Source: Candidatus Eremiobacteraceae bacterium (GTDB lineage: Bacteria > Vulcanimicrobiota > Vulcanimicrobiia > Eremiobacterales > Eremiobacteraceae). From it: a DNA stretch of 64,000 bases. Location of the stretch: assembly GCA_035710745.1 (NCBI GenBank), contig DASTCX010000003.1, positions 62,001 to 126,000 on the forward strand, read 5' to 3'. Both the position numbers and the translations under genes were made by a program. Shown in pieces: positions 4,385 through 42,321 of the stretch. Each line of letters starts with the position of its first letter. Positions within the stretch are counted from its first letter, which is position 1. Below the pieces are notes generated by a model. The model saw only the letters and a program-made list of their open reading frames with translations, was not told the origin of the DNA and made no database searches.

Positions 4385-7300
4385 TTAGTTGGGCAGTAAA
4401 GAGATCTGTTGAGGAGCAGGGGCGGCGAAGTCCATGCACGGTGCCGCGCGATACGGACACGTCGCGCACTGCGGTCCGGCCTTAGCGGTGAGGTCAGCGT
4501 TGCGGATCCCGGCCGCGACGGCCTCGACCTCTGCGCGCACCGTATCATCGTCCGGCAGATCGACGCGCTCGAGGCTCACGCCGCCCGCGCCGATCCGCAG
4601 GATGGCGCACGATGCGATGTCTTCGCCGTACGCCCTCGATGCAGCGATGCGATAGAGCGCCAGTTGAAGAGCGTAGTGCTCTATCGCGGTGATGCCGGTT
4701 TTATAATCGATGATGAGGCGCCCGCCGGTTGGATCGTCCGCGATGAGATCGATGAAGCCGGTCACCTCGACGCCGCCGACGTCGAGTGTGAACGGCGCCT
4801 CGACGCGCACCGGCTTCCAACCCGCGAGCGCGGCCATGACCGCCTCGACGCTTGCCGTGGCGCGATCGCGCTCGGCGCGCGACGGTTCGAGCGCGAGATC
4901 GCGGATCGCAGCGTCGATGTACGCGGCCGGCGATCGACCTTGCGCGCGGCCCCAGGTCTCAAGCGCCCGGTGGACGAGATCGCCGTACGTGCCGGCAGAA
5001 AGCAGCGAATCGCGCGACCGTTCCGAGGCGTCCAGCTCCTGCGGATCGGCATCGTCAGCTGTCGAAGCCGAACGGCCAAATCCGGGCAGACCGTACGCGA
5101 GCCGGTACGTCACCGAACGCGGGCATTGCTCGAACTGCGAGATCGATGAGAACGAGAGCGCCGGTACTTCGACCTGAGGCCGAATGGCGCGTTCGAGCAC
5201 GAAATCGCCGACCGGCAATGGCGCAGCGGACACGGCCGGCGATGAGCGGACGAAACGCGCGCCGGTGCGAGCCGGTTCGTCGAGCGTCTTCCAGCCTCGC
5301 CGCTTGATCCACGAGAGCGCGTGCTCCAAGAACTCATGGACTTTGCCATCGGGGTTCTTGCCGGACGCTGGTCGTCGAAAGCCGCTGACGAATAGCTCGT
5401 CGCGCGCTCGCGTAAGGGCGACGTAGAACAGCCGACGTTCCTCGCGCTCGCGCTCGAGGTCGCGCTCCCGCTCGCCCGACGTCAAACCGCCCGCATCCGC
5501 GGCAAGGTCGACGTACGTCGTGTGGAACGGCCGTTTGAGGTCCGGCCCCTCGCCGGCGAGCAGCGCCCCGCTCCTCGGATCGAGGCGTACGGCGGCGTAA
5601 TCCGGCGGCATCTGCGGCCAGACGTCGATGACGAACACGACCGGCCATTCGAGCCCTTTCGCCGCGTGAATGGTCATGACATTGATCGCATCGGCGGATG
5701 GCGGATCCGCTTCTTGATCGTCGGCCTCGGCCAAACTCAGCTCGCGAACGTATTGGTCAAAGTCCGCAGCGCGCGAGCCGGGATTGCGTTCGGCGAACGA
5801 GCGCACCATCGCGGACAGCTTTTCGACGTTCGCGCGCGCCTGATCGCTGCGGTGGCCCGACCGTGTGTCGGCGGTCAGCAGCAGGCTGGCGCGATCGACG
5901 ACCGCTTCCCAGGCGATGACGAGCGGTGCGCCGCCGAACTCCTCGAGCGCATCGATCGTGCGGCGGAACCGGTCGAGCCGGTTACGTGCATCGGCATCGA
6001 ACGAGTCGGGAAGGTCTTCGACGACGGCTCTGCTCGAGAGGTGCGAACCCTCGATGCGCATGTCGCCGCACAGCGCGGCGATCGAGGCATCGGAGAGGCC
6101 GACCGACGGTGAGGAGAGGACGCGAGCGGCGGCCGCATCGTCGAGCGGATCGGTCACGAGCCGCAGCCACGCGAGTGCGTCGAGCACCTCCGGCGCCTCG
6201 TAGAAACCTGCGCCGCCGTACTGGCGGAACGGCACGTCGCACGCGTTGAGCGCCTCGATGAGCGGCTGGAGCTTCGTCTTGCGCCGGCTCAAGATCGCGA
6301 TGTGGCGCGGCGCGAGCGGTTCGAACTCGCCGGGCCGGTCTTGGCGTTCGACGCTCCGTCCGCTCGCCAACAGCTCGACGATCTTCGCCCCGACCCATTG
6401 CGCCTCGAGCTCGCGCGTCCGCGCGGCGTTCGGCGGCTCGCCGCCGACCAACCCCCAATGGCTTGCGGCATGGACGACCGGAGTATCCGCTTCACCGCGC
6501 GTCGCCTGGAGCGGCTCGCGATCCTCGAAATGCGATCCGATGACCGAGTGCGCGAGATCGAGGATCTCTTGCCGCGAGCGTCTGTTCTCGGTGAGCGCGA
6601 ACGTGACGCAGGCCGGCTTTCGGCCGAAGAGAGCGAGATTGAGCGGATCGATCCCGCGGAATCCGTAGATCGTCTGACGAGGGTCGCCGACGACCATCAC
6701 GCGTTCGCAGCCCTCGCCGAACATCGCCTCGAGCAGACGGATCTGGCGCGGGTCCGTGTCTTGATACTCGTCGACGATGCAATGGCGGAAGCGGCCGCGC
6801 AGCGATCGTCCGATGTCCGGCCGCTTCACGATCATGTCGTGCGCGATGTTGAGCAAGTCGGCATACGTGAGCGCGTTGCGATCGCGCAGGCGTTCATCGT
6901 AGCGCGCGAACAGGCCGGCCGCGGCTTCGACGCGAGCCCGCTCCTCACCGAGCTCGCGCTCGAACGCGCGATCGCCGATCTCGGCGATCAACTGTCGCGT
7001 CTTGCCGACCTTGAAGATCTTGCGACACGGGTTCGCGCCGAACGCGTCGGCGGCGGCGAGCGCGCGGTCGCGAAACGCGGCGATCGACTCGCCGCGATCG
7101 CGCAGCCGCTGGCAGATGTCGAAGAGCGCCGTCCGGACCTGATCGACGACGAAGAACCGGAGCGCAAACGATGCCGCATCGCCGCGCACCGCGCCGCGGA
7201 TCATATCGTCGAAAGCATGCCAGAACTCGACCCGCGCGTCGATCTCGTTGATGAGCGTGCTATCGGGCGAAAGATCGAGTTCGAAGCCATGCTCTTTGAG

Positions 7301-7609
7301 CAGCGACAACGCGAAGGCGTGGAAGGTGGCGCATTCGGGCGGCTCGACCCCCGGCCCCAACCGGTTCATGATCCGCCCACGCAGCTCGGCCGCCGCCTTC
7401 TTCGAGAACGTCAGAAGCAGGATCGACGAGGCGGGGCAGCCGGCGGAAGGATCATCATTCAGCTGCGCCACGCGCTCGACGATCGTGAACGTCTTCCCCG
7501 TGCCCGCGCCGGCATCGACGAGCGCCGGGGCGGTGAGCGGGTGTCCCATGACCGATCGTTGTTGCGCGGAGGCGGTCGCGTGTTTATCCGGCGCGATCAT
7601 CACGTTCAC
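4385..7609 (-). CDS. UvrD-type helicase with RecB-type Fe-S nuclease domain (AdnA/AdnB/AddA-like)
   Basis: This is a 1074-residue superfamily 1 helicase-nuclease. The Walker A motif DAGAGTGKT (K39) is intact, as is the DExx box IVDEYQDTD. Helicase motif V/VI regions include TIHAAKGLEWP and LFYVALTRARDEL. The C-terminal domain carries the PD-(D/E)XK core: an Asp in GFIDLI, then IIDYKTG and a Gln in LQLALYR. A four-cysteine iron-sulfur staple is formed by one Cys in FEQCPRS and the CATCPYRAAPC motif near the end. Such enzymes resect double-strand breaks for recombination and degrade foreign DNA. The start lies 26 bases inside the neighbouring helicase gene, so the two are co-transcribed and probably form a heterodimer. 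Confidence 0.88.
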   Translation of the reverse strand: MNVMIAPDKHATASAQQRSVMGHPLTAPALVDAGAGTGKTFTIVERVAQLNDDPSAGCPASSILLLTFSKKAAAELRGRIMNRLGPGVEPPECATFHAFALSLLKEHGFELDLSPDSTLINEIDARVEFWHAFDDMIRGAVRGDAASFALRFFVVDQVRTALFDICQRLRDRGESIAAFRDRALAAADAFGANPCRKIFKVGKTRQLIAEIGDRAFERELGEERARVEAAAGLFARYDERLRDRNALTYADLLNIAHDMIVKRPDIGRSLRGRFRHCIVDEYQDTDPRQIRLLEAMFGEGCERVMVVGDPRQTIYGFRGIDPLNLALFGRKPACVTFALTENRRSRQEILDLAHSVIGSHFEDREPLQATRGEADTPVVHAASHWGLVGGEPPNAARTRELEAQWVGAKIVELLASGRSVERQDRPGEFEPLAPRHIAILSRRKTKLQPLIEALNACDVPFRQYGGAGFYEAPEVLDALAWLRLVTDPLDDAAAARVLSSPSVGLSDASIAALCGDMRIEGSHLSSRAVVEDLPDSFDADARNRLDRFRRTIDALEEFGGAPLVIAWEAVVDRASLLLTADTRSGHRSDQARANVEKLSAMVRSFAERNPGSRAADFDQYVRELSLAEADDQEADPPSADAINVMTIHAAKGLEWPVVFVIDVWPQMPPDYAAVRLDPRSGALLAGEGPDLKRPFHTTYVDLAADAGGLTSGERERDLEREREERRLFYVALTRARDELFVSGFRRPASGKNPDGKVHEFLEHALSWIKRRGWKTLDEPARTGARFVRSSPAVSAAPLPVGDFVLERAIRPQVEVPALSFSSISQFEQCPRSVTYRLAYGLPGFGRSASTADDADPQELDASERSRDSLLSAGTYGDLVHRALETWGRAQGRSPAAYIDAAIRDLALEPSRAERDRATASVEAVMAALAGWKPVRVEAPFTLDVGGVEVTGFIDLIADDPTGGRLIIDYKTGITAIEHYALQLALYRIAASRAYGEDIASCAILRIGAGGVSLERVDLPDDDTVRAEVEAVAAGIRNADLTAKAGPQCATCPYRAAPCMDFAAPAPQQISLLPN

Positions 7610-10600
7610 CGTACGCGATCGAGCCGGCGCCCGGGCAGATCGATTTGTAGCCGCACCACTTGCACGTCACTTCGTCGGCGGCGGTGACGAACGCGGTGAT
7701 GCCACCGCTCGAGACCTCTCGGACGACGCCGGCGGCGATGATGTCGTAGATCTCGTCGAGTTGCGCCCGGGGCAGCGCATCGCGCTTGCCGTCGCCGAAC
7801 ACCGTCGCATCGGCGTGGATCTCGCCTTTGTCCTTGTCGTTGCCGCCGAGGTAGAGATATTCGACCCGCGATACATGCGCACCAAACGCAGCCTCGACAG
7901 CGCGAACGTAAAGGTAGGTCTGAAGCTTGAGACCGTCCGGGGCGCTCCCGAACAACCCGATACCAGGAGACGCTACATCGAGCTGGCCGATGACCTCCGC
8001 AGCGTATTCCGCGCTCCCTTTTACCGTGCGCATTTTGCCGCTCTTATAGTCGCGCACGACGAGCGTTCCGTCTTCGAGACGGTCGATGCGATCGACATAG
8101 CCGACGAGCTTCGCGCCGCCGACCTGGATCTCGATGCGGCGCTCGCACGCGAGGACGGTGAACGGGTTGTCGCGTGCTTCATCGACGAGCCAGCGAGCGT
8201 AGGCGCCGAGCTGTCGCATGATGCGAGCCAGCTCGTAACGGAAGAGCGGAGCGTCTGGCGTGATTCCGCTCTCGACCGCGGCGCGAACCGCTTCTTCGCG
8301 TGCGATCGGTGCAAGCGCGTCGACGATGTCGCCCGCGACGAGTACCGGCGCTGCGGCGCGAGAGAAGTCCGTCGCCTCGAGATGGTAACGCTCGAGCACC
8401 CGATGGACGAAGCGCCCCATCCGAGTCGAGTCGTCATCATCGGTGGACAACTGCATCGGATATTTGTAGAACCAACGGCGCGGGCACGCGACGTAATCCT
8501 CGATCGCAGACGGCGAAAGGCGGTCGAGCGGCCATGCGAGCGCGCGAGCCGGCTCGTCGACGAGCGTGCGAGCGTCGATGTATGCGCCGAGCACCGGGCG
8601 TGACGCGAGATAACGCTGCACCTGCGGCAACGCGCGCTCGCTCGCTCCGGCGGCCGCATACGCCGCCGCGAAGCCGTCGTAGTCGGTGCGATCGGCGGTC
8701 ACGGGCGCGGGTGAGCGCTCCGCGATCAGCTGAGCGAACGTCGAGAGCGGTTGTTCCGCCGCATCGTCGCCGAGCCGCGCCGCCGTCGCGATGACGTCGA
8801 GGCGAGCTCTCGTGAGGGCGACGTACCAAAGGGAGGCCTCTTCGAGCTTGCCGTCGTCGGAACTGCGGACGTACGGCAACGGCCTGTTACCGAGAAGAGG
8901 ATCGGGTCGCGGACGAGCCGGCAGCACGCCGTCGACGAGTTGCGGCACGACGACCATGTCGAACTCGAGCCCCTTCGCGGCATGGATCGACATGACGGGG
9001 ACGCCGGCGCTTTCCGCCCGCGGCTCTTGATATGGATCGCCGAGAAGGGAGACGAGCGGATTCAGTTTCGCGACGAAACCTGCCGCATCGAGACGTTCAC
9101 CTTCGCTCGCGGCGATGTCGGCGACGTCGCGAGCGGCCTGCACGAGCGTCGCGAGCCGGGCCGGCGACGCCGTCGCGTCGAATCCCGGCACGTCGCGTTC
9201 CGCTCGCATCGGCCACAATAGGTCGAGTTCGCGGACGATCGTCTGGATTAGGAACGCGGGATCGAAGCGGTACCTGGGCTTGACGGCATTGCGGCACGCG
9301 TCGAGCCGAGCGGCAAAGCGCGACCACTCCTCGCGGCCGCGCGGCGGCGTGGCATCGAAGGCGCGTCTCGGCGCTTGAAAAAGATCGGGGTTCGCGCCGA
9401 GCGCGATGCTGACGGTCAGTGGACGAAAGCCGACGAGCGGATTTGTTAGCAACCGGCGCCACGCGTCTGCATCACCGTCGCCGGTGAGCACGTCGATCGT
9501 CGATAGGACGGCTGCTACGAGCGAATCGTCGTGAAAGCCCGCGGTCGATTGGGCGGCGACGGGGATGCCCCGCGCTTGGAGTTCGCGCGCGATCGCGCCG
9601 CGATACGGTTCGACGACGCGCAGCAGAACCGCGACCTCGCTCGGCTTCGTGCCGGCGCGCACCCGTTCGGCCACCGCGTCGGCTATCGCGTTCACCTCGT
9701 CGTGCGTCGTCTCGACTTGCATGAGGCGCACCGAACCGGAACCTTTGTTGTGCGGGTCGGCGGTCGTCAGCGACTCAGGTCGAAGACGAGGCGTCTGATT
9801 CGCGACGTCGAGGATCGCCTTCACGGAGCGGCGGTTGAGGCGCAGCGTCAGCTGATCGCAGTCGAACAGCGTTATCGCCTTCTCGACGTTCTCGGGAGCC
9901 GCGCCGCGGAAGCGGTAGATCGATTGGTTGAAGTCGCCGACGAAGCACATCGCCGGCGTCGGCGGCTTCGCGTGCGCGGAAGCGCCGCCGAAGACCTCGA
10001 GCAATCGCAGCTGCATCGGATCGCTGTCTTGGAACTCGTCGACGAGGACGTGCTCGAACGGAAGCCGCGCGCGAAGCCACACGTTTGCCTGCGACTTCGG
10101 ATCTTCGAGCGCGCGCACGGCATCGACGACAAGATCGCGGAAATCCGCCAGTCCGAGCCGCGTGCGCTCTGCGTCCATCATCGTATAGAGCCGCGCGAGG
10201 TCGGCGAGCCGGGCGTCGCCGTGCGCCTGTTCGGCGAACGCGTCGGTCGTCACGCCATCGCCTTTCAGTCGTGCGATGAGATTGAGCGCAGCCGTCGCGA
10301 ACGCAGCACTGTGAACGACGTCGTCGTCGAATGTCTCGAGCTTGACGTCCTTGATGAGGCGATCCCAGATGAGACGCTCTTTGACCGGTGTCAGGAGGTC
10401 GCGGCCGGCACCTCGCGGTGCGTCGCCGTCGAGCAGCCGCTTGCAGAAGCCGTGAAACGTGTAGACGTGGAGCTCGGGGACGGCGATCGATCCGCCGGAA
10501 CGCTCGCGCATACGCTGGACGATGCGACGCCGCATGCCCGCCGCCGCACGCCGGGAAAACGTGAGCACGAGGATCGCTTCCGGGGAGATGCGATCGTCGT

Positions 10601-10730
10601 GGACGATCGCGGCGAACCTGCGCGCGAGCGTCTCAGTCTTGCCGGTGCCCGGCCCCGCGAAAACGATGAGATGATTGCCGCGGTGCTCGATGACGAGCCG
10701 TTGCTCAGCGGTGGGCTCGAAAAGCTGCAT
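7584..10730 (-). CDS. UvrD-type helicase with RecB-type Fe-S nuclease domain, partner subunit
   Basis: This 1048-residue protein has the same plan as its downstream neighbour: Walker A AGPGTGKT (K31), DExx box LVDEFQDSD, motif SIHAAKGLEFD, and motif VI in LWYVALTRARLD. The C-terminal nuclease has GYVDRI, VVRDYKSG and a Cys cluster made of VACPRR plus CKWCGYKSICPG. Both partners therefore keep a complete motor and a complete nuclease. This matches actinobacterial AdnAB (both subunits with motor and nuclease) better than AddAB (one motor) or RecBCD (one nuclease). The sizes are also close to those of AdnA and AdnB. It is the promoter-proximal gene of the pair. Confidence 0.87.
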   Translation of the reverse strand: MQLFEPTAEQRLVIEHRGNHLIVFAGPGTGKTETLARRFAAIVHDDRISPEAILVLTFSRRAAAGMRRRIVQRMRERSGGSIAVPELHVYTFHGFCKRLLDGDAPRGAGRDLLTPVKERLIWDRLIKDVKLETFDDDVVHSAAFATAALNLIARLKGDGVTTDAFAEQAHGDARLADLARLYTMMDAERTRLGLADFRDLVVDAVRALEDPKSQANVWLRARLPFEHVLVDEFQDSDPMQLRLLEVFGGASAHAKPPTPAMCFVGDFNQSIYRFRGAAPENVEKAITLFDCDQLTLRLNRRSVKAILDVANQTPRLRPESLTTADPHNKGSGSVRLMQVETTHDEVNAIADAVAERVRAGTKPSEVAVLLRVVEPYRGAIARELQARGIPVAAQSTAGFHDDSLVAAVLSTIDVLTGDGDADAWRRLLTNPLVGFRPLTVSIALGANPDLFQAPRRAFDATPPRGREEWSRFAARLDACRNAVKPRYRFDPAFLIQTIVRELDLLWPMRAERDVPGFDATASPARLATLVQAARDVADIAASEGERLDAAGFVAKLNPLVSLLGDPYQEPRAESAGVPVMSIHAAKGLEFDMVVVPQLVDGVLPARPRPDPLLGNRPLPYVRSSDDGKLEEASLWYVALTRARLDVIATAARLGDDAAEQPLSTFAQLIAERSPAPVTADRTDYDGFAAAYAAAGASERALPQVQRYLASRPVLGAYIDARTLVDEPARALAWPLDRLSPSAIEDYVACPRRWFYKYPMQLSTDDDDSTRMGRFVHRVLERYHLEATDFSRAAAPVLVAGDIVDALAPIAREEAVRAAVESGITPDAPLFRYELARIMRQLGAYARWLVDEARDNPFTVLACERRIEIQVGGAKLVGYVDRIDRLEDGTLVVRDYKSGKMRTVKGSAEYAAEVIGQLDVASPGIGLFGSAPDGLKLQTYLYVRAVEAAFGAHVSRVEYLYLGGNDKDKGEIHADATVFGDGKRDALPRAQLDEIYDIIAAGVVREVSSGGITAFVTAADEVTCKWCGYKSICPGAGSIAYGERDDRAG

Positions 10731-18689: not shown

Positions 18690-19775
18690 ATGAAGAATGT
18701 CTTGGTCTCGTCACTGTGCACCGCATGTGTCGCAGTGTTCCTCGTCACGCTGGCGCGTCCGGCAGACGCGGCCGTGCGGACGTACTACATCGCCGCCGAC
18801 GAGATGGTCTGGAACTACGCGCCGAGCGGGCGCGATCTCATCGACGGCGGTGCGCTCCAACCGCTCGGCCCGAGCCAGCTCGGGTGGTCGTATCGCAAGG
18901 CGCTCTACCGCGAGTACACCGACGCGACGTTCAAACGCCTCAAATCGCGTCCGGCGAACGAGGCGTACCTCGGTCTGCTCGGGCCCGTCCTTCGAGCCGA
19001 GGTCGGCGACACGATCGTCATCCACTTCAAGAACGACACGCCGCTCGCGCTCTCGATGCACCCACACGGCCTGCTCTATGCGAAGACGTCGGAAGGCGCA
19101 CCGTATCGCGACGGCACCTCGACCAACGGCAAGCTGAGCGGCGCGGTCGCGCCGGGCGCGACGTACACGTATGTATGGAAGGTGCCCGAGCGAGCGGGTC
19201 CGGGTCCGATGGACGGCAGCTCCGTCGTCTGGATGTACCACTCGCACACGAATGAGACGCAAGACGTCGACACGGGGCCGATCGGGCCGATCGTCGTCAC
19301 CGCGAAGGGGATGGCGAGACCTGACGGCTCGCCGAAGGACGTCGGCACCGAGATATTCACGCTCTTCGCCGAGTACGTCGAAACGCAGAGCCGCCTTTTC
19401 GGCGCCACGCTCGCCGATCCGAAGCTCAATCCGCACCACCTCACGATGAAATCGCCGGCGCTTGACGATTCGAACTCGATCGTCAGCATCAACGGCTACG
19501 CGTTCGGCAACATGCCGATGATCGACCTGAAGCGCGGCGAGCATGTCCGCTGGTACGTCCTCGCGACGATGAGCGAGTTCGACTTCCACGCGCCCGACTG
19601 GCACGGCGAGACCGTCATGTCGGACGGCAACCGGACGAACGTCATCCAACTCGGGCCGATGGACATGAAAGCGGTCGACATGTGGCCGGACAACCCCGGC
19701 ACCTGGCTGTTCAACTGCGATATCAACGTGCACCGCATGGGCGGCATGACCGCGCGCTATACGGTGACGCCATGA
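18690..19775 (+). CDS. ceruloplasmin-like two-domain multicopper oxidase, copy 1 (domain-2 trinuclear ligands lost)
   Basis: This 361-residue exported protein (signal cleaved near PADA-AVRT) has two cupredoxin domains. Its mature start RTYYIAADEMVWNYAPSG resembles the first domain of ceruloplasmin. Domain 1 trinuclear ligands are present: H124 and H126 (HPHG), H184 and H186 (YHSH). In domain 2 the type-1 site is complete (H300, C343, H348, M353). The trinuclear-centre histidines are changed, with D303 in HAPDWH and N342/D344 in place of the HCH pair. The copy thus has one half of a trinuclear centre. The ATG at 18690 has a good SD 8 bases upstream. Its stop overlaps copy 2 (ATGA). Confidence 0.88.
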   Translation: MKNVLVSSLCTACVAVFLVTLARPADAAVRTYYIAADEMVWNYAPSGRDLIDGGALQPLGPSQLGWSYRKALYREYTDATFKRLKSRPANEAYLGLLGPVLRAEVGDTIVIHFKNDTPLALSMHPHGLLYAKTSEGAPYRDGTSTNGKLSGAVAPGATYTYVWKVPERAGPGPMDGSSVVWMYHSHTNETQDVDTGPIGPIVVTAKGMARPDGSPKDVGTEIFTLFAEYVETQSRLFGATLADPKLNPHHLTMKSPALDDSNSIVSINGYAFGNMPMIDLKRGEHVRWYVLATMSEFDFHAPDWHGETVMSDGNRTNVIQLGPMDMKAVDMWPDNPGTWLFNCDINVHRMGGMTARYTVTP

Positions 19776-20806
19776 AACGCGCATTGCTCGCGCTCGCTGC
19801 GGTCGCAAGCGTCTGCGCCTTTATGGCTCCCGCCGCCGCTCGCGCCGCCGTGCGCACCCATTACATCGCCTCCGACCCCATCGTGTGGAACTACGCTCCG
19901 TCCGGAAGCGACCTCATCACCGGCAAGCCCCTGTCACTGCTCGATCCACAGCAGCTCGGGTGGACATACCACAAGATCGTCTATCGCGAATACACGGACG
20001 CGACGTTCACGCACCTCGTGCCGCGACCGTCGAGCGATGCGTACCTGGGTCTGATCGGCCCCATCATCCACGCCGAGGTCGGCGACACGGTCGACATCGT
20101 CTTCAAGAACGACTCGCCGGTCCCGACGAACATCGCGCTCGCCGGCGGCGCTTCGTCTCGCGTAGCACCGGTGAAACCGCACGCGACCGCGCGCTACGTC
20201 TGGCGGATCACCGACGCGCTCGGTCCAGGCCCGCACGACGGCAGTTCGGTCGCTTGGCGCTACTATTCGACGGTCGACGAGGCGAACGACGAAAGCGTAG
20301 GTATGTTCGGACCGCTCGTCGTCACGCGGCACGGCTCGGCGCGTCCGGACGGATCGCCGGCGGACGTCGATCGCGAAGCGTTCGCCGCTTTCACGCAGCA
20401 GGAAGAGGGCTTTAGCCGACTGCTCGGCACGAACGTCGCCGATCCTGCGATCAACAAGCGGCATCTCAAAGAAGGTCCGCTGTTCTCCGACTTCACGTTC
20501 GCCAACGACTTCTTCACGATCAACGGCTTCGTCTTCGGCAACATGCCGATGCTGATGCTGCGCGAGGGTGAGCGCACGCGCTGGTATGTCATCGTCACCG
20601 GAAGCAGCTTCGACGCGCACACCCCGCACTGGCACGGTCAGACGGTGCTCGACCGCGGCATGCGCACGGACATCATCGACGCGCAGATCAACGAGATACG
20701 CGTCGTCGACATGGTTCCGGACAATCCGGGCGTTTGGCTGTTCCATTGTCACGTTCGGCTGCATCTGGCGGGCGGGATGGAGGCCCGGTTCGCCGTCGTG
20801 CGCTGA
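19772..20806 (+). CDS. ceruloplasmin-like two-domain multicopper oxidase, copy 2 (domain-1 trinuclear ligands lost)
   Basis: This 344-residue exported paralogue has signal cleavage near AARA-AVRT. The domain-1 His pairs are gone: the HxHG position reads IALAGG and the second HxH reads YYSTVDE. Domain 2 is complete, with H283, H286 and H288 (HTPHWH), H325-C326-H327 (HCH), H331 and M336. It therefore keeps the type-1 copper site and the domain-2 half of the trinuclear centre. That is the exact complement of copy 1, to which it is translationally coupled. Alone it should not reduce oxygen by the usual mechanism. Confidence 0.87.
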   Translation: MKRALLALAAVASVCAFMAPAAARAAVRTHYIASDPIVWNYAPSGSDLITGKPLSLLDPQQLGWTYHKIVYREYTDATFTHLVPRPSSDAYLGLIGPIIHAEVGDTVDIVFKNDSPVPTNIALAGGASSRVAPVKPHATARYVWRITDALGPGPHDGSSVAWRYYSTVDEANDESVGMFGPLVVTRHGSARPDGSPADVDREAFAAFTQQEEGFSRLLGTNVADPAINKRHLKEGPLFSDFTFANDFFTINGFVFGNMPMLMLREGERTRWYVIVTGSSFDAHTPHWHGQTVLDRGMRTDIIDAQINEIRVVDMVPDNPGVWLFHCHVRLHLAGGMEARFAVVR

Positions 20807-20869
20807 CCAAGTCGGAGGTCCGGTTGCTGCAGCCACCGTATTAGAGCCTCAGAACGGAGGCTGCTCGAT

Positions 20870-21943
20870 ATGAGGAGAGTCCTACTCTCGCTTTTCGGCG
20901 TTGCATTGCTTTTCGGGGCGTTCGCGCGCCCCGCGCAGGCGGCGGTCCGCACCTACTACATCGCCGCGGACGAAGTCATCTGGAACTACGCGCCGAGCGG
21001 CATGGACGAGATCACCGGCAAGCCGCTGCCGCCGCTTCAACCTAAGCAACTGGGTTGGATGTTCCGCAAAGCCGTGTACCACCAGTACACCGACGCGACG
21101 TTCAAGCACATGACAGTGCGTCCGGCGGACGAGTCGTACATGGGACTGCTCGGGCCGATCATCCACGCGGAGGTCGGCGATACGATAGTGATCCATTTCA
21201 AGAACCAGACCCGCTTCCCGTTGAGCGTACATGCGCATGGCATGCTCTACGATAAGAGCTCGGAAGGCGCGCTCTACCAAGACGGCATGCCGAAGAGCAC
21301 CAAGCTCGGCGACGGCGTGCCGTCCGGTCAGCAGTTCACCTACTCGTGGAAAGTGCCGGACCGGGCCGGCCCCGGACCGGGCGATCCGAGTTCGGTCATG
21401 TGGATGTTCCACTCGCACGTCGACGAGGTGCACGACGTCAACACGGGCCCGGTCGGCGCTATCGTGATCACGCGCAAGGGGATGGCCAAGCCGGACGGTT
21501 CGCCTAAGGACGTCGACCGTGAGATGTTCGTCGTGTTCGCTGAAGAGGACGAGAGCTCGAGCCTTTTCTTCCCCGCGAACGTCGCTGACCCGACGATCAA
21601 CAAGCGACACGTCAAGGCAGCCGGCCCCTACCTCACCGATGACGAGCTGTTCTCCATCAACGGATTCGTGTACGGCAACATGCCGATACCGACGATGCGT
21701 GTAGGTCAACGCGTCCGCTGGTACGTCATGGCCACTATGAGCGACTTCGATTTCCACACGCCGCACTGGCATGGCAACACGCTGTTGATCGACGGCATGC
21801 GCACCGACATCACGGACATCTCACCGATGGAAATGCGGGTCGGGGACATGGTGCCCGACGCCGCAGGTGTCTGGCTCCTGCACTGTCACGTCAACCTCCA
21901 TCTCGACGCGGGCATGGAGGCCCGATACGAGGTGCTGAAGTGA
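20870..21943 (+). CDS. ceruloplasmin-like two-domain multicopper oxidase, copy 3 (all copper ligands present)
   Basis: This 357-residue exported protein (signal cleaved near PAQA-AVRT) has every expected ligand: H121/H123 (HAHG), H181/H183 (HSH), H296/H299/H301 (HTPHWH), H338-C339-H340 (HCH), H344 and M349. Two-domain oxidases with the type-1 site only in domain 2 assemble as head-to-tail trimers, with trinuclear centres between subunits. This copy could do so alone. Possible substrates include Cu(I), Fe(II), Mn(II) or phenolics, and none can be chosen from sequence. It has its own SD (GGAGG, 11 bases upstream of the ATG) after a 63-base gap. Confidence 0.92.
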   Translation: MRRVLLSLFGVALLFGAFARPAQAAVRTYYIAADEVIWNYAPSGMDEITGKPLPPLQPKQLGWMFRKAVYHQYTDATFKHMTVRPADESYMGLLGPIIHAEVGDTIVIHFKNQTRFPLSVHAHGMLYDKSSEGALYQDGMPKSTKLGDGVPSGQQFTYSWKVPDRAGPGPGDPSSVMWMFHSHVDEVHDVNTGPVGAIVITRKGMAKPDGSPKDVDREMFVVFAEEDESSSLFFPANVADPTINKRHVKAAGPYLTDDELFSINGFVYGNMPIPTMRVGQRVRWYVMATMSDFDFHTPHWHGNTLLIDGMRTDITDISPMEMRVGDMVPDAAGVWLLHCHVNLHLDAGMEARYEVLK

Positions 21944-22983
21944 GGCGCGCCGTGCGTCTGGTCGCAGCCGCAGCGGCGCTTGCGACGGCGCTGCTCGCGA
22001 TCGTCGTGCAACCGGCAGCGGCGCGCGAGCGGACGTACTACGTCGCCGCAGACGACGTCGTTTGGAACCCGATCCCCTCCGGTCGCAACCTTGAAGGGTC
22101 GCGTCCGATCGGCCCGATCCCGCCGTCGACGCTCGGCTGGAAGTTCCACCTGCTCGTGTATCGCCAATACACCGACGACACATTCAAGGTGCTTGCGAAG
22201 CGCCCGGATGACCAGCTCTACCTCGGCATCACCGGTCCGCTCATGCGGGCCGAAGTCGGCGATACAATCGTCGTCGTCTTCAAGAACGACACGCGCTTCC
22301 CGGTGAACATGCGGCCGAACGGTTTGAAGTCGACGGGTGGCCTAGCACTCGTCGCACCTGGCTCACGCAAGACGTATCGCTGGAGCGTGCCGGCAAGTTC
22401 GGGCCCGGGCCCGTCAGACGGCAGCTCGATACTCTGGACCTATCAAGCCGACGGTAAGGACCTCGCGGACTCGGGCCTCTACGGACCGATCATCGTGACG
22501 CGCCATGGAATGGCGCGGCCGGACGGTTCGCCGAATGACGTTGACCGCGAGTTTGTGGTGTGGTTCCACGAGATCGAAGATACGGTCTCGCCGACTTGGA
22601 CCGAGAGCCTCGCTGATCCGGCGACGAATCCGCATCACCTCAAGGCGACGTCGTTTCCGCCGCCGGTGCTGTTCAACAACAACATCTTCGTGAATCTCAA
22701 CGGCTTTGCGTACGGCAACATGCCGATGCTGTTCATGCACCGAGGCGAGCGCGTGCGGTGGTACGTGTTCACGTCGAGCTCGAGCTTCGACTTCCACGCG
22801 CCTTCGTGGGAAGGTCAGACGGTGCTTTATCGCGGCACGCGATTGGACGTCATCCCGCTCAACCTCAACCAACCAGCGGCCGTCGACATGATCCCTGACA
22901 ACCCAGGCGTGTGGCAGATCTATTGCAGCGTGAACATCCACTTGGACGGCGGAATGGAGGCGCGGTTCACGGTCCTTCCCTAG
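21940..22983 (+). CDS. ceruloplasmin-like two-domain oxidase homologue, copy 4 (type-1 copper site only)
   Basis: This 347-residue exported paralogue starts at a GTG overlapping the copy 3 stop. Signal cleavage is near PAAA-RERTYY. Both domain-1 His pairs are lost (RPNG, TYQADG). In domain 2 the trinuclear ligands are replaced (S289 and E291 in HAPSWEG, Y328 and S330 flanking C329). The type-1 set H286, C329, H334 and M339 remains. It should bind one blue copper and transfer electrons but not reduce oxygen. This parallels the internal ceruloplasmin domains that hold type-1 copper without a trinuclear centre. The regulator gene follows after 45 bases. Confidence 0.85.
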   Translation: MRRAVRLVAAAAALATALLAIVVQPAAARERTYYVAADDVVWNPIPSGRNLEGSRPIGPIPPSTLGWKFHLLVYRQYTDDTFKVLAKRPDDQLYLGITGPLMRAEVGDTIVVVFKNDTRFPVNMRPNGLKSTGGLALVAPGSRKTYRWSVPASSGPGPSDGSSILWTYQADGKDLADSGLYGPIIVTRHGMARPDGSPNDVDREFVVWFHEIEDTVSPTWTESLADPATNPHHLKATSFPPPVLFNNNIFVNLNGFAYGNMPMLFMHRGERVRWYVFTSSSSFDFHAPSWEGQTVLYRGTRLDVIPLNLNQPAAVDMIPDNPGVWQIYCSVNIHLDGGMEARFTVLP

Positions 22984-23028: not shown

Positions 23029-23988
23029 ATGTCGTTCAATCCGTCGACGATCGAACCGACCGAGCGTATCGATCTCAGGCCGCTCCCCACGTGGGAGCGG
23101 CAAGATCGCATGGTCGCGGCGTTCGATCGGCTCAATGCCGGTCAGATGGTCGAGTTCACGAACGATCACGAGCCGAAGGCGTTGCGCGCGGCGCTCGACC
23201 TTGCGCGCGAAGGCGTCGCGCTCTGGGATGTCCGCAACGCGGGCGACGGCCGCTGGGTCATCCGCCTCACGAAGCTTCCGGAAGCGTCGACGCTCGGCGA
23301 TACGCCGCGCATCTCATTCCTGCGTCGCTGCACGATGTTCCGCAACGCCCCGAAAGAGATTTTGCGCGAGATCGACCGCGTGTCGAAAGAACGAACGTAC
23401 CACGACCGCATGGTCATCGTCGCTGAGGGCACGAACTGGCCCGACCTCGGCATCGTCCGCCGAGGCGTCGTCGAGGTGACGCGCGCGACCGATGAAGACC
23501 GCGAGATCGTTCTCTACGACGTCTCGCCATATAGCATGTTCAACGAAGCGGCGGTTTTCGACGAAGGTACCGCGGAGGTGACCGTCATCGCGCGCGGCGA
23601 CGTCGACACGGTCGAAGTGCCGGCGCAATTCGTACGCCAGCTCATCGTGCGGAGTCCTGAAGTCGCAGCCGGCGTCGCACGCTACTTCGCGCAACGGCAG
23701 CGGCGGCTGACGGGTGCGGCGGGCAACCTCGCATTCGGCCGCGTGCTCACTCGGATCGCGCGCGTCTTGCTCGACTACGCGTCGCCCGATAACGGTATGG
23801 CGCGGGGCGTGAGCGGCGTCGAGCGGATCACGCAATCGGATCTCGCGGCGCGCGTCGGCACGGTGCGCGACATGGGCAGCCGCGCGCTCTCCCATCTCGA
23901 GTCACTCGGCGCGATCGAACTGCGGCGCGGGCGCGTCATGCGCCTCGATCGGGCAAAACTCGAAGATGTCGTCCGCACCAACAAATAA
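23029..23988 (+). CDS. Crp/Fnr-family regulator with N-terminal DUF2249 domain
   Basis: This 319-residue fusion starts with a DUF2249 module at about residues 14-82 (WERQDRMVAAFDRLNAGQMV, FTNDHEPKALRAAL). A cyclic-nucleotide-binding-type beta roll follows (about 95-210), then a Crp-type helix-turn-helix (about 245-310, ITQSDLAARVGTVRDMGSRA). DUF2249 proteins are commonly found with nitric-oxide and respiratory heme-copper proteins and are thought to bind heme or metal. No N-terminal Fnr-type cysteine cluster is present. The position 45 bases after the fourth oxidase suggests it senses redox, NO or metal state and controls that operon. That role is inferred. Confidence 0.85.
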   Translation: MSFNPSTIEPTERIDLRPLPTWERQDRMVAAFDRLNAGQMVEFTNDHEPKALRAALDLAREGVALWDVRNAGDGRWVIRLTKLPEASTLGDTPRISFLRRCTMFRNAPKEILREIDRVSKERTYHDRMVIVAEGTNWPDLGIVRRGVVEVTRATDEDREIVLYDVSPYSMFNEAAVFDEGTAEVTVIARGDVDTVEVPAQFVRQLIVRSPEVAAGVARYFAQRQRRLTGAAGNLAFGRVLTRIARVLLDYASPDNGMARGVSGVERITQSDLAARVGTVRDMGSRALSHLESLGAIELRRGRVMRLDRAKLEDVVRTNK

Positions 23989-28304: not shown

Positions 28305-29252
28305 TCACCCGCTAGCCTTTCCGATCAGGCTCTTGTACGTCAGCCGCTTGCCGTCAGCGGCCTTCGCCGCTTGTGCGAACCGTGGTCCGTCCTGTTCATC
28401 GCGACGGTTGAACCGAAAGACTAGCTCCTCGACATACCGCTGCAGATGCTCGGGCGCAACGTGAACCTGCGTTCCCCTCAGGTTCCTTTTGAGAAGCGAC
28501 CAAAACGCCTCGATATGATTTGTATGGATATGCCCGTTGACGTATTCCGTCGCATGGTTGACGACATAGCGAACGTAGTCGGCAGATAGCGGACCATAGG
28601 CTCCATCCGCATCCGTGTAGACAACCGCGCCAGGCTCTACGTTCTCGCGAACCTTTTGGACAACGGTCTTACCCGATGCGTCAGGAACGACAAAGGCGCG
28701 GACCTTGCCGGTTTTCTTGCCACGTTGGACAATGCCGAGAACGATCGTCTTTTTGTCCTGCCAGCGTTCGGCCGCTTTTCCCGCAGATCGTCCAATGCTC
28801 GGACGACGGGGCTTGCCACCAACGTAGGTCTCATCTGCTTCAACGGGACCCGCGAGCTTCGTAAAGGCTTTGTCCGTCATCGCCTCGCGGACGCGATGCA
28901 GAATGAACCATGCCGTCTTTTGCGTGACGTGCAAGGCGCGAGACAATTCGTGCGAGGATATGCCGTTACGATTGCTTGCGACCAGCCAGATCGCCGGAAG
29001 CCACTTATCAAGGCCAATGGGCGAATCTTCGAAGATCGTCCCCACCTTGGCCGAGAACTGCTTTTTGCAATCGCGGCAGTACCAGCGGAAATACTTTTCA
29101 AGGTAGGCGACCTCGCCCGATCCGCAGCCGAAACGCGGGCATGCCACGCCATTGGGGAAGCGGATTTGAACGAAGAAGTCGTGCGCAACCTGCGGGTCCG
29201 CAAATTGACGGACCGCATCAAGCATCGACTGTGGAATCGGGTGCTTATCCAT
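28305..29252 (-). CDS. IS1595-family transposase
   Basis: This 315-residue transposase has an N-terminal zinc ribbon (C38, C43, C59, C62) followed by a helix-turn-helix-like region (SHELSRALHVTQKTAWFILH). The ISXO2-like DDE domain has its first acidic residue in VEADETYVGG and the second in VYTDADGAYG. The third motif is HTNHIEAFWSLLKRNLRGT, which carries the Asn/Glu typical of this superfamily. The length is normal and no frameshift is seen, so it is probably active. It encodes the enzyme expected to move the surrounding element. Confidence 0.93.
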   Translation of the reverse strand: MDKHPIPQSMLDAVRQFADPQVAHDFFVQIRFPNGVACPRFGCGSGEVAYLEKYFRWYCRDCKKQFSAKVGTIFEDSPIGLDKWLPAIWLVASNRNGISSHELSRALHVTQKTAWFILHRVREAMTDKAFTKLAGPVEADETYVGGKPRRPSIGRSAGKAAERWQDKKTIVLGIVQRGKKTGKVRAFVVPDASGKTVVQKVRENVEPGAVVYTDADGAYGPLSADYVRYVVNHATEYVNGHIHTNHIEAFWSLLKRNLRGTQVHVAPEHLQRYVEELVFRFNRRDEQDGPRFAQAAKAADGKRLTYKSLIGKASG

Positions 29253-39641: not shown

Positions 39642-40865
39642 CTAGATGAAGTTCAACGACGTGAACGAGTCGCCGAGCACCGCGCTCGCAGGCACATCGA
39701 GCCAGCCTTCGAGCACGGTGGCGTAGACCGACCTGAAGTCGGTGTGCCACTTGAGATTGCCGTAGTCAAGGTCGGTGAGGCTCGGGTGGTCGCCGTACAC
39801 CCCGCCTTTCACTCCTCCCCCGACCACGAACATGGGGGCCGCCGTTCCGTGATCGGTGCCCCGGTTCGCGTTCTCCTCGACGCGACGTCCGAACTCGGAG
39901 AACGTCATCGTGAGAACGCGGTCGTCGGCGTTGTGTGCCGCCAAGTCGTCGTAGAACGCTTCCAAGCCGTCCCCGAACTGTTGGAGCAACGCGTCCTGTC
40001 GCGGGCGCTGCGCCGCGTGCGTGTCGAACGATCCGATGCTGACGTAGAAGACTTTCGTGCCGAGATCCGAGTTGACGATCGCGGACACGAGGTTGAGCCC
40101 CTGGGCGAACGGCGTCTTCGGATAGTCGACGGCCGGCTTGTAGCCGGCGACCAAGTGCGGCAGTTTCGAAGACGCGGCACGCGCGTCGCGCTCGACTTCT
40201 TGGACGAGCTGCAAGTACGGGCTGTCGAACGGATAGCGATCGCCGTCGCCCATGAGGATGCGATCGGCCTGCGCCTGCTCGTCGGCGCGTCCGTTGAAGC
40301 GGAAGCCGCGCAGGTCGCCGATCGCCGGCACGTCGGTCTTGTCCGCGACGAGCATCTTCGGCAGCAGCGGTCCGATCGCGACGCCCTTGAACAGGTTATT
40401 CGCCGGCAGCTCCGCTTTGTCAAGGTAGCGGCCGGCCCAGCCGGTAGTATCGTACGAATCGGGCGCAGCGGTTTGCCAGATCTCCGTGCCGCGGAAGTGT
40501 GACAGGACGTAGTTCGGATAGTGAACGCCTTGCAGAACCGCGACGCGATGGCGGTCGTAGAGCGCCTTGAGCGAAGCGAGCTTCGGGTTCATGCCGATCG
40601 AGGAGTCGATCGCGAGCACGTCCGACTGCGCGACGTTGATCGTCGGCCGGACATTGTAGTACGCAGGGTCGCCGTGCGGCACGATCGTGTTGAGGCCGTC
40701 GTTGCCGCCCTGAAGGTTGACGACGACGAGGCAACGGCTTGCAACCGAACCGGCTTTCGTCACCTGCGATGCCGCGCGCGCGGCGCGCGCGAAAATCGAA
40801 TCGACCGCGAGCGCGCCGCCGAACGCCCCGATGCCCTGGACGATGAACTGTCTTCTCGTGCTCAT
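39642..40865 (-). CDS. DUF1501-family Tat-exported protein
   Basis: This 407-residue protein has a Tat signal (STRRQFIVQGIGAFGG) and matches DUF1501: LVVVNLQGGNDGLNTIVPHG near the start, DTHAAQRPRQDALL in the middle and TMTFSEFGRRVEENANRGTDHG towards the end. The fold belongs to the alkaline-phosphatase/sulfatase superfamily. DUF1501 and DUF1800 genes almost always occur as neighbours, as here, and their biochemical role is not established. It starts 13 bases after the DUF1800 stop. Confidence 0.93.
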   Translation of the reverse strand: MSTRRQFIVQGIGAFGGALAVDSIFARAARAASQVTKAGSVASRCLVVVNLQGGNDGLNTIVPHGDPAYYNVRPTINVAQSDVLAIDSSIGMNPKLASLKALYDRHRVAVLQGVHYPNYVLSHFRGTEIWQTAAPDSYDTTGWAGRYLDKAELPANNLFKGVAIGPLLPKMLVADKTDVPAIGDLRGFRFNGRADEQAQADRILMGDGDRYPFDSPYLQLVQEVERDARAASSKLPHLVAGYKPAVDYPKTPFAQGLNLVSAIVNSDLGTKVFYVSIGSFDTHAAQRPRQDALLQQFGDGLEAFYDDLAAHNADDRVLTMTFSEFGRRVEENANRGTDHGTAAPMFVVGGGVKGGVYGDHPSLTDLDYGNLKWHTDFRSVYATVLEGWLDVPASAVLGDSFTSLNFI

Positions 40866-40878
40866 ACCATCGTGCCGT

Positions 40879-42321
40879 TCATTCCAGTTGATATGCTGGA
40901 AGGGCCATCGCGAGACTCATCGCGCCGCGCACCTTCTCATCGATGTTCTCGCCGTTGAGCTCGACCGGATTACCGACGCCGTCCGTCGTGAGGAAGCCGA
41001 CGATCGATTGTCGCTGCTCGTCCGTGGCGTCGTCCTGCACGGTCAGATCGAGCACGCGGGCGGCGACCGCGGCGGCATCGGTCTGCGAGACGCCGGCTAT
41101 CCACGCGACCGGCCCTGCCGCGGCGGGCATCGCTTGCATCTGCTCCGACACCGGCGCGCGGAACGAGACCAACTGATTGAGGAAGTTGAGCCGCGCGAGG
41201 ATCGTGCCTTGGTTGAGCCATTGCGATCCGCCGGGCCAACCGGCGACGTTCGGAGGCCGCATGAGCACTTGGTCCATGGCGTTCATCGCGCCGATGATGC
41301 GCGGCGTCGACGTCGTCACGCCGATCGTGCGAAGCGAACCGACGACGAGGTCGACCGGGCTCTTGACGATGCTCCGGTATGCGCGGTCGGAATAGAAGAC
41401 GTTGGAGCGCAGCAGCGTGTCGAGCAGCGCGGCGACGTCGTACTTCGCGTCGCGAAACCGCCCCGCGGTCGCGTCGACGAGCTCTTGCTCTGGATCGTCG
41501 TAGACGAAGTTGCGCAGGAACTTGCGCGCCATGAACTGCGCCGTCGCCGGCTGACCCATGATGATGTCGATGATGTCGTCGCCCGCGAACGCGCCGGTGT
41601 GCCCGAGGAACGTCTTCGAACCGGCGTCGTGGAAGCGAGCGACAAAGCTCGAGCTCGCGCCGTCGCGCGGCACGATCCAGCCTGTGAACGCGCGCGCACT
41701 TTCGCGGACGTCTTGCTCGGTGTAGTTGCCGACACCCATCGAGAACAGCTCCATGAGCTCGCGCGCGAAGTTCTCGTTCGGATGCTGCTTGCGGTTCTGG
41801 TTGCCGTTCAGGTAGAGGAGCATCGCCGGATCGCGAGCGACCTGGTGCGTCAGGTCGGCGTAGTTCCCGAGCGCATTAGCGCGGAACAACCGGTTTTGCA
41901 CGACCATCATGGCGGGCGTGATGCCGCCTTGCACCCCGCTCGTGAAATGATTGTGCCAGAAGTAGGTCATCCGCTCGATGAGCGGATTCGGCGTCTGGAG
42001 CATACGGTCGAGCCACCATGACGCCGCGCGAAGATACGCGTCGCGCCGCTGCTGCGGCGGCGCCATCGGATCATAGGTGAGATCGCCTTGGGGTGCGGCC
42101 GGCAACGAGTCGGGCCGTGGGTCGAGGAGACCGTCGACTGCGGCGTTCATGCCGGCGTTTGCGGCAGCGTCGGTCTCGGCCGGCGAGCCCCCGAATCCCG
42201 CGCGTCTGAGGAGGTGAGCGGCGAGTCGGGGACTCCACGGCCCGCGATACGGCAGCAGCGCGCTCGATGTGTCGACGCTGCCCCTTGGTCTGAATTTGTC
42301 GTCCTGCGGCTGTGAGATCAT
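40879..42321 (-). CDS. DUF1800-family protein
   Basis: This 480-residue protein has DUF1800 motifs: HLLRRAGFGGSPAE near residue 37, FWHNHFTSG, NENFARELMELFSMGVG, DVRESARAFTGW and RPPNVAGWPGG near the C terminus. It is the promoter-proximal gene of the DUF1800-DUF1501 pair, which is exported in many environmental bacteria. No clear signal peptide is seen at its own N terminus. It may be carried out as part of a complex with the Tat-exported partner. The role is unknown. Confidence 0.92.
   Translation of the reverse strand: MISQPQDDKFRPRGSVDTSSALLPYRGPWSPRLAAHLLRRAGFGGSPAETDAAANAGMNAAVDGLLDPRPDSLPAAPQGDLTYDPMAPPQQRRDAYLRAASWWLDRMLQTPNPLIERMTYFWHNHFTSGVQGGITPAMMVVQNRLFRANALGNYADLTHQVARDPAMLLYLNGNQNRKQHPNENFARELMELFSMGVGNYTEQDVRESARAFTGWIVPRDGASSSFVARFHDAGSKTFLGHTGAFAGDDIIDIIMGQPATAQFMARKFLRNFVYDDPEQELVDATAGRFRDAKYDVAALLDTLLRSNVFYSDRAYRSIVKSPVDLVVGSLRTIGVTTSTPRIIGAMNAMDQVLMRPPNVAGWPGGSQWLNQGTILARLNFLNQLVSFRAPVSEQMQAMPAAAGPVAWIAGVSQTDAAAVAARVLDLTVQDDATDEQRQSIVGFLTTDGVGNPVELNGENIDEKVRGAMSLAMALPAYQLE

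Follow-up and report, generated by a model that had tools for sequence, protein, structure and literature searches.

Ceruloplasmin is usually explained as a two-domain oxidase that was tripled, after which two of the three trinuclear copper centers (TNCs) disappeared. Both ceruloplasmin and hephaestin, the six-domain multicopper ferroxidases of animals, consist of units of two cupredoxin domains, with a type-1 copper (T1) in each second domain and a single TNC, to which unit 1 contributes through its first domain and unit 3 through its last. For the known two-domain oxidases, activity requires a trimer, whose TNCs form between domain 1 (D1) of one subunit and domain 2 (D2) of its neighbor (PMC3738974; PMC13151041). 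This holds for the type B enzymes, including the small laccases (SLAC) and CjMCO, which carry the T1 copper in D2 (PMC13151041, PMC3192119). Here we describe four tandem oxidase genes, c1 to c4, in a window of 64,000 nucleotides from a Candidatus Eremiobacteraceae bacterium (assembly GCA_035710745.1, contig DASTCX010000003.1, positions 62,001 to 126,000). Their ligands, arrangement and relatives suggest that it codes for a pair of exported oxidase modules derived from a ceruloplasmin-type homotrimer, namely a mixed trimer of c1 and c2 with one TNC and a module of c3 and c4; we put the probability of this reading at about two in three.

All four proteins keep a complete His-Cys-His-Met T1 site, which is found in D2 only: H300/C343/H348/M353 in c1, H283/C326/H331/M336 in c2, H296/C339/H344/M349 in c3 and H286/C329/H334/M339 in c4. 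At the eight TNC positions, c3 has HHHH in both domains, and c1 has HHHH in D1 and D-H-N-D in D2, where three of the four histidines are gone and H305 is kept. The opposite half is present in c2, with HHHH in D2 and A-A-Y-T in D1, where the loop beside the ligands has also been lost. Neither half is present in c4 (R-N-Q-D in D1 and S-E-Y-S in D2). Each chain thus has the two cupredoxin domains and the D2-only T1 site of a type B oxidase, and c3 alone has the eight TNC histidines, which c1, c2 and c4 lack in whole or in part. An initial annotation had placed four two-domain oxidases at 18690-22983, listed their T1 residues and described the split of the TNC ligands; the open reading frames lie exactly there, every residue number is correct, and the split holds, with the retained H305 of c1 as a refinement. 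The four copies are 47-58% identical to one another, and Pfam assigns Cu-oxidase_2 to all of them and Cu-oxidase_3 to c1 and c3. Each N-terminus opens with a hydrophobic stretch, and the proteins are therefore probably exported.

Judged by the sequence of c3 and the fold of c4, ceruloplasmin and hephaestin are the closest solved structures. A phmmer comparison of c3 with rat ceruloplasmin gives E=5.7e-183, with three matches per chain, one for each unit, whereas streptomycete two-domain laccases reach only about 1e-12. AlphaFold2 models of c4 and c2 are both confident two-domain folds (predicted local distance difference test scores of 90.6 and 90.9), and the top PDB match of the c4 model is human ceruloplasmin, at a TMq of 0.85 as against 0.57 for two-domain laccases. 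The losses are also alike: unit 1 of rat and human ceruloplasmin lacks the same three of the four D2 ligands as c1, and unit 3 lacks the same D1 loop as c2. The Fe(II) site of ceruloplasmin (E272, E935, H940 and D1025, with roles as described in PMC3738974) differs, in that the position of D1025 is Leu, Val or Ile in c1 to c4 and that of H940 is not His. Because of the residue at the D1025 position, Fe(II) is not an obvious substrate of c1 to c4. Among complete copies of the class "full, other", the D1025 position is Asp or Glu in 80 of 86 and the E272 position is Glu or Asp in 61 (loci L041-L138; c3 positions 256, 261, 292 and 343). In the tandem clade of f1, by comparison, Leu, Val or Ile stands where those relatives have the Asp. 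These residues suggest that the single-copy relatives in other phyla are prokaryotic enzymes of the ferroxidase type, and that the tandem clade of family f1 has a changed substrate.

The genes form two coupled units, c1-c2 and c3-c4, because stop-start overlaps of the form NTGA lie inside each unit and a 63-base gap lies between them (Table 1). This is the sole gap between the genes and has its own GGAGG; a promoter and terminator consensus scan of it found no terminator-like site and nothing between the modules. Genes of the c1, c2, c3 and c4 types are called classes A, C, F and B' below, and B denotes the middle gene of three-gene operons. In related clusters, all 14 within-module junctions (A>C, A>B>C and F>B') are four-base NTGA overlaps.

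Relatives were sought in 149 genomes of the phylum. The order A-C-F-B' is that of the window's genus (g1), which includes G001, a second species, in which both the order and the ligand residues are the same. Two other genera, represented by G006 and G008, have orthologs of c1 and c2 that are 57-63% identical and keep the same halves; in G001, G006 and G008 alike, A has HHHH in D1 and has lost D2, C has lost D1 and has HHHH in D2, and T1 is intact throughout. In G006 and G008 these genes belong to a three-gene operon, A-B-C, with a complete T1 site in each gene and with D1/D2 ligands of HHHH/THDS in A, HYYH/THDD or YGYH/THND in B, and AAHP/HHHH or AAYP/HHHH in C. In both order and ligand pattern this is units 1-2-3 of ceruloplasmin: a D1 half, a degraded unit and a D2 half. 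A and C co-occur in the same four of the 149 genomes (G000, the source of the window, and G001, G006 and G008) and are never found apart. F-B' pairs, a complete gene with a blank one, are present in G003 (two loci), G012 (two loci), G010 and G008; the first three genomes lack c1- and c2-type genes, and in G008 the pair lies apart from these genes at another locus. G006, which has A-B-C, has no complete copy of this type.

All four copies are under purifying selection, with ratios of nonsynonymous to synonymous change (dN/dS) between the window and G001 of 0.15 for c1, 0.18 for c2, 0.07 for c3 and 0.11 for c4. We compared the classes at 53 reference columns that are conserved in at least 95% of 93 full copies (c3 numbering). 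Changes that run through a whole class fall mostly on the TNC ligands and the TNC loop and never on T1: in class A they are the ligands H299, H338 and H340 together with D313, and in class C the ligands H121, H123 and H183 with the adjacent Y127/E132/G133 loop. B' and c4 have changed all eight TNC ligands, the Y-E-G loop and one further residue each (Lys in c4). Outside the ligands, D1/D2 identities between the window and G006 are 69/49% for A and 53/59% for C (bootstrap fraction 0.0008), and between the window and G008 they are 70/53% and 55/57% (0.012). The better-conserved half is the one that keeps its ligands, as expected if the one half-site of each protein is under selection.

Trees were built with the 12 ligand columns masked, and alternatives were compared by approximately unbiased (AU) tests. 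A+B (support 94/90), C (100/94), F (100/99) and B' (100/100) form separate clades, and C, B' and c4 group together (99/96). An A clade without B is rejected (AU p=0.005), and on these trees B, the middle gene of the triples, comes out as a duplicate of A, the c1 lineage, and not of c4. The units of ceruloplasmin form their own clade elsewhere (100/98), whose exact sister is uncertain because its branches are long. A YYST motif and a loop deletion common to c2 and ceruloplasmin domain 5 prompted a test of shared ancestry; a shared origin was rejected both for unit 1 with A (AU p=1.9e-6) and for unit 3 with C (AU p=5.1e-7), and the motif and the deletion are therefore convergent. Since these tests place A-B-C outside ceruloplasmin's own history, the ceruloplasmin plan would have arisen twice.

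What the data show directly are the conserved ligand patterns, the overlapping genes, the selection and the phylogeny; from these we infer how the modules may assemble, in what stoichiometry, and how electron flow and catalysis may proceed. The ancestor would be one ceruloplasmin-type multicopper oxidase of two domains, assembled as a homotrimer. In module 1, c1 and c2 would form an obligate mixed trimer, to which c1 would give the D1 half and c2 the D2 half of a single TNC at the c2-to-c1 interface, with another c1 (or c2), or else c4, in the third seat. If each D2 of a ring meets the next D1, any mixed A/C trimer, whether c1(2):c2(1) or c1(1):c2(2), has exactly one complete TNC, and three different subunits have one in the order A-B-C only. 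On this geometry, an A/C trimer could plausibly have come first and A-B-C second, with B as an A duplicate that would then have lost its D1 half. Substrate electrons would enter at the T1 coppers, and O2 would be reduced to water at the TNC. Only the T1 of c2 would be wired to that center through an intact His-Cys-His, like the domain-6 T1 of ceruloplasmin (path in PMC3738974), and the T1 coppers elsewhere in the ring would serve as remote sites of electron entry or storage, as in ceruloplasmin. Module 2 would consist either of three c3 subunits partnered by c4, or of a c3(2):c4(1) trimer with one complete center and three T1 sites. We also consider it reasonably probable that these half-site subunits (c1/c2 in the window, A-B-C in two genera) make up a heteromeric ceruloplasmin, that is, a second invention of the plan without gene fusion.

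The initial annotation had proposed a different composition, one heterotrimer of c1, c4 and c2; in this model c4 would be the blank middle unit, and c3 would form a homotrimer of its own. Such a trimer would also have one TNC and three T1 sites, and the ligand pattern of c4 is that expected of a middle unit; the triples of G006 and G008 do have a degraded middle gene, and the long stem branch of c4 (0.86 changes per site) would fit a changed role. However, c4 is coupled to c3 through its GTGA overlap, F-B' pairs stand alone in three genomes, the middle gene of the triples comes from the c1 lineage, and the order c1-c4-c2 would have to be enforced, which a c1/c2 ring does not need. We therefore regard this composition as unlikely. 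The broader idea of a split ceruloplasmin is now better supported than that annotation could know. Its comparison with ceruloplasmin was right (c3 matches at E about 1e-183, and two-domain laccases fall far behind), the gene order it proposed to compare in relatives recurs in G001, and complementarity has been conserved rather than lost at random, with the c1/c2 halves kept across three genera and selection on all four genes. The idea takes its cleanest form in G006 and G008, where A-B-C matches units 1-2-3; in the window, the gene arrangement favors c1+c2, plus c3+c4, as the units.

Less likely still is that c1, c2 and c4 are T1-only blue copper proteins, acting as electron carriers or copper stores in TNC-less homotrimers, with the half-sites as remnants. 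The T1 ligands are indeed untouched in all classes, apart from the Leu that replaces Met in one B' gene, and the c4 and B' genes show that T1-only forms can persist, but this leaves unexplained both the exact D1 half in A and D2 half in C across three genera and the better conservation of the ligand-keeping half. Tandem duplicates commonly decay, and the family does include copies with frameshifts or stops in G101 and G014; random decay of redundant duplicates around a functional c3 is nonetheless largely refuted, and we give it almost no weight. For c1, c2 and c4, dN/dS values of 0.11-0.18 lead us to reject pseudogene decay, their frames and T1 sites are intact, the patterns have been kept over about one change per site, and G006 carries A-B-C with no complete copy beside it. 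Chance decay thus fails to explain the complementary pattern.

Several points weigh against our preferred reading of two mixed modules. The structure predictions are of single chains, and the proposed complexes go beyond them. The D1/D2 contrast is non-significant for A versus F (0.21), for F versus C (0.06) and for G006-G008, the most closely related pair (0.14). The lineages that carry A and C together are few (genus g1 and G006/G008) and do not amount to many independent events. The placement of c4 is also loose, since AU tests do not reject c4 with B' (p=0.41), with C (0.11) or with A/B (0.10). Finally, rings in which c3 (class F) supplies TNCs to c1 or c2 in other combinations could form.

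The oxidase family is widespread, mostly as single complete genes, in Acidobacteriota, Chloroflexota, Actinomycetota, Verrucomicrobiota, Pseudomonadota and archaea. Aligned full-length homologs outside the clusters keep the 12 ligands, except that one type-3 His aligns as Gln in L089 and L110. A contig scan of 79 loci with flanks of up to 8 kb, run with two peptide patterns that divergent sets may escape, and the 149 phylum genomes yielded no degenerate multi-copy sets outside family f1, and none of the fetched loci holds a multi-unit open reading frame of this subfamily. Damaged copies in another family lie in G014 (L137:8049-9380, with an in-frame TAA) and G101 (L171:3886-5432, split over two frames), with ligands otherwise present. 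A B' gene of G008, L122:4972-6060 (-), has Leu for the T1 Met, as ceruloplasmin does at its domain-2 T1. The source genome (2.97 Mb, 98% complete; nearest titled relative the metagenome-assembled genome CRAIB_MAG119, Candidatus Eremiobacteria, L036) also encodes a more distant oxidase at G000:C3:185905-186570 (L005, L006), in a 635-codon open frame with 35-38% identity.

Neighboring genes, in the window and in the relatives, do not name the substrate of the oxidases. The DUF2249-Crp protein downstream of c4 is a possible regulator of the cluster. A regulator of about 1190 residues with BTAD, AAA_16 and TPR domains adjoins both A-B-C operons and three F-B' loci. Elsewhere in the window are an IS1595-family transposase (28305-29252, -), with an 81% homolog near the G001 cluster too; two UvrD-type helicases that overlap and each carry a PD-(D/E)XK nuclease domain (4385-7609 and 7584-10730, -), which resemble an AddAB pair; and DUF1501 and DUF1800 proteins side by side (39642-42321, -).

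Table 1. Coordinates of the oxidase genes, their junctions and associated regulators; positions refer to the window unless a locus is given.
Feature	Position	Strand	Description
c1 (class A)	18690..19775	+	361 aa; two-domain ceruloplasmin-like oxidase; T1 and D1 half of TNC
c2 (class C)	19772..20806	+	344 aa; T1 and D2 half of TNC
c3 (class F)	20870..21943	+	357 aa; complete two-domain oxidase, 12/12 copper ligands
c4 (class B')	21940..22983	+	347 aa; T1 site only, zero TNC ligands
c1/c2 overlap	19772..19775	+	ATGA stop-start overlap, translational coupling; all within-module junctions are NTGA
c3/c4 overlap	21940..21943	+	GTGA stop-start overlap (junction sequence)
Gap between modules	20807..20869	+	63 bases between c1-c2 and c3-c4; GGAGG ribosome-binding site at 20856-20860
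DUF2249, cNMP-binding and Crp-type helix-turn-helix regulator	23029..23988	+	adjoins c4 downstream; also beside the G001 cluster, where it is 97% identical
BTAD-AAA_16-TPR regulator	L124:11954-15535	-	
BTAD-AAA_16-TPR regulator	L123:11341-14931	-	
BTAD-AAA_16-TPR regulator	L118:11011-14520	+	
BTAD-AAA_16-TPR regulator	L120:5180-8689	-	
BTAD-AAA_16-TPR regulator	L121:11062-11676	+	cut by contig end

The bacteria described here are soil members of the phylum Eremiobacterota, and their active oxidase is probably a mixed ring that follows the plan of human ceruloplasmin but is made of separate proteins. We found no report of a heteromeric two-domain oxidase in the open-access literature searched. 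The loss pattern is that of ceruloplasmin, reached from an independent starting point and with the subunits still separate, which suggests that reduction to one TNC is possible without gene fusion. Possible intermediate stages stand side by side: complete single genes, complete and blank pairs, pairs of halves, and triples of half, degraded and half genes in ceruloplasmin order. Whether complementary loss in a ring of paralogs can come first thereby becomes testable. If our reading is true, the cluster would offer a natural mixed-ring oxidase, useful for the study of electron transfer between T1 sites.

Among known systems, c3 fits the definition of type B two-domain oxidases by its ligands, yet its sequence is far less similar to the laccases than to ceruloplasmin, and the known type B enzymes are homotrimers with three TNCs, whereas c1 and c2 are short of one half of the TNC ligands and c4 of the whole set. 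Coagulation factors V and VIII have the same fold and a six-domain ancestry, and have partly lost copper ligands in paralogous units (PMC3600357); they are, however, clotting cofactors on fused or processed chains, while the T1 sites of the window genes are all kept under purifying selection. The prokaryotic MnxG-type and green-algal Fox six-domain proteins are likewise multi-unit with a single trinuclear site, but their chains are fused and place the TNC between domains 2 and 3 (PMC3600357), a distinction drawn from their description and not from sequence. Ceruloplasmin comes closest to the plan proposed here, but carries its six domains on one chain, whereas c1 to c4 are separate open reading frames of 344-361 residues.

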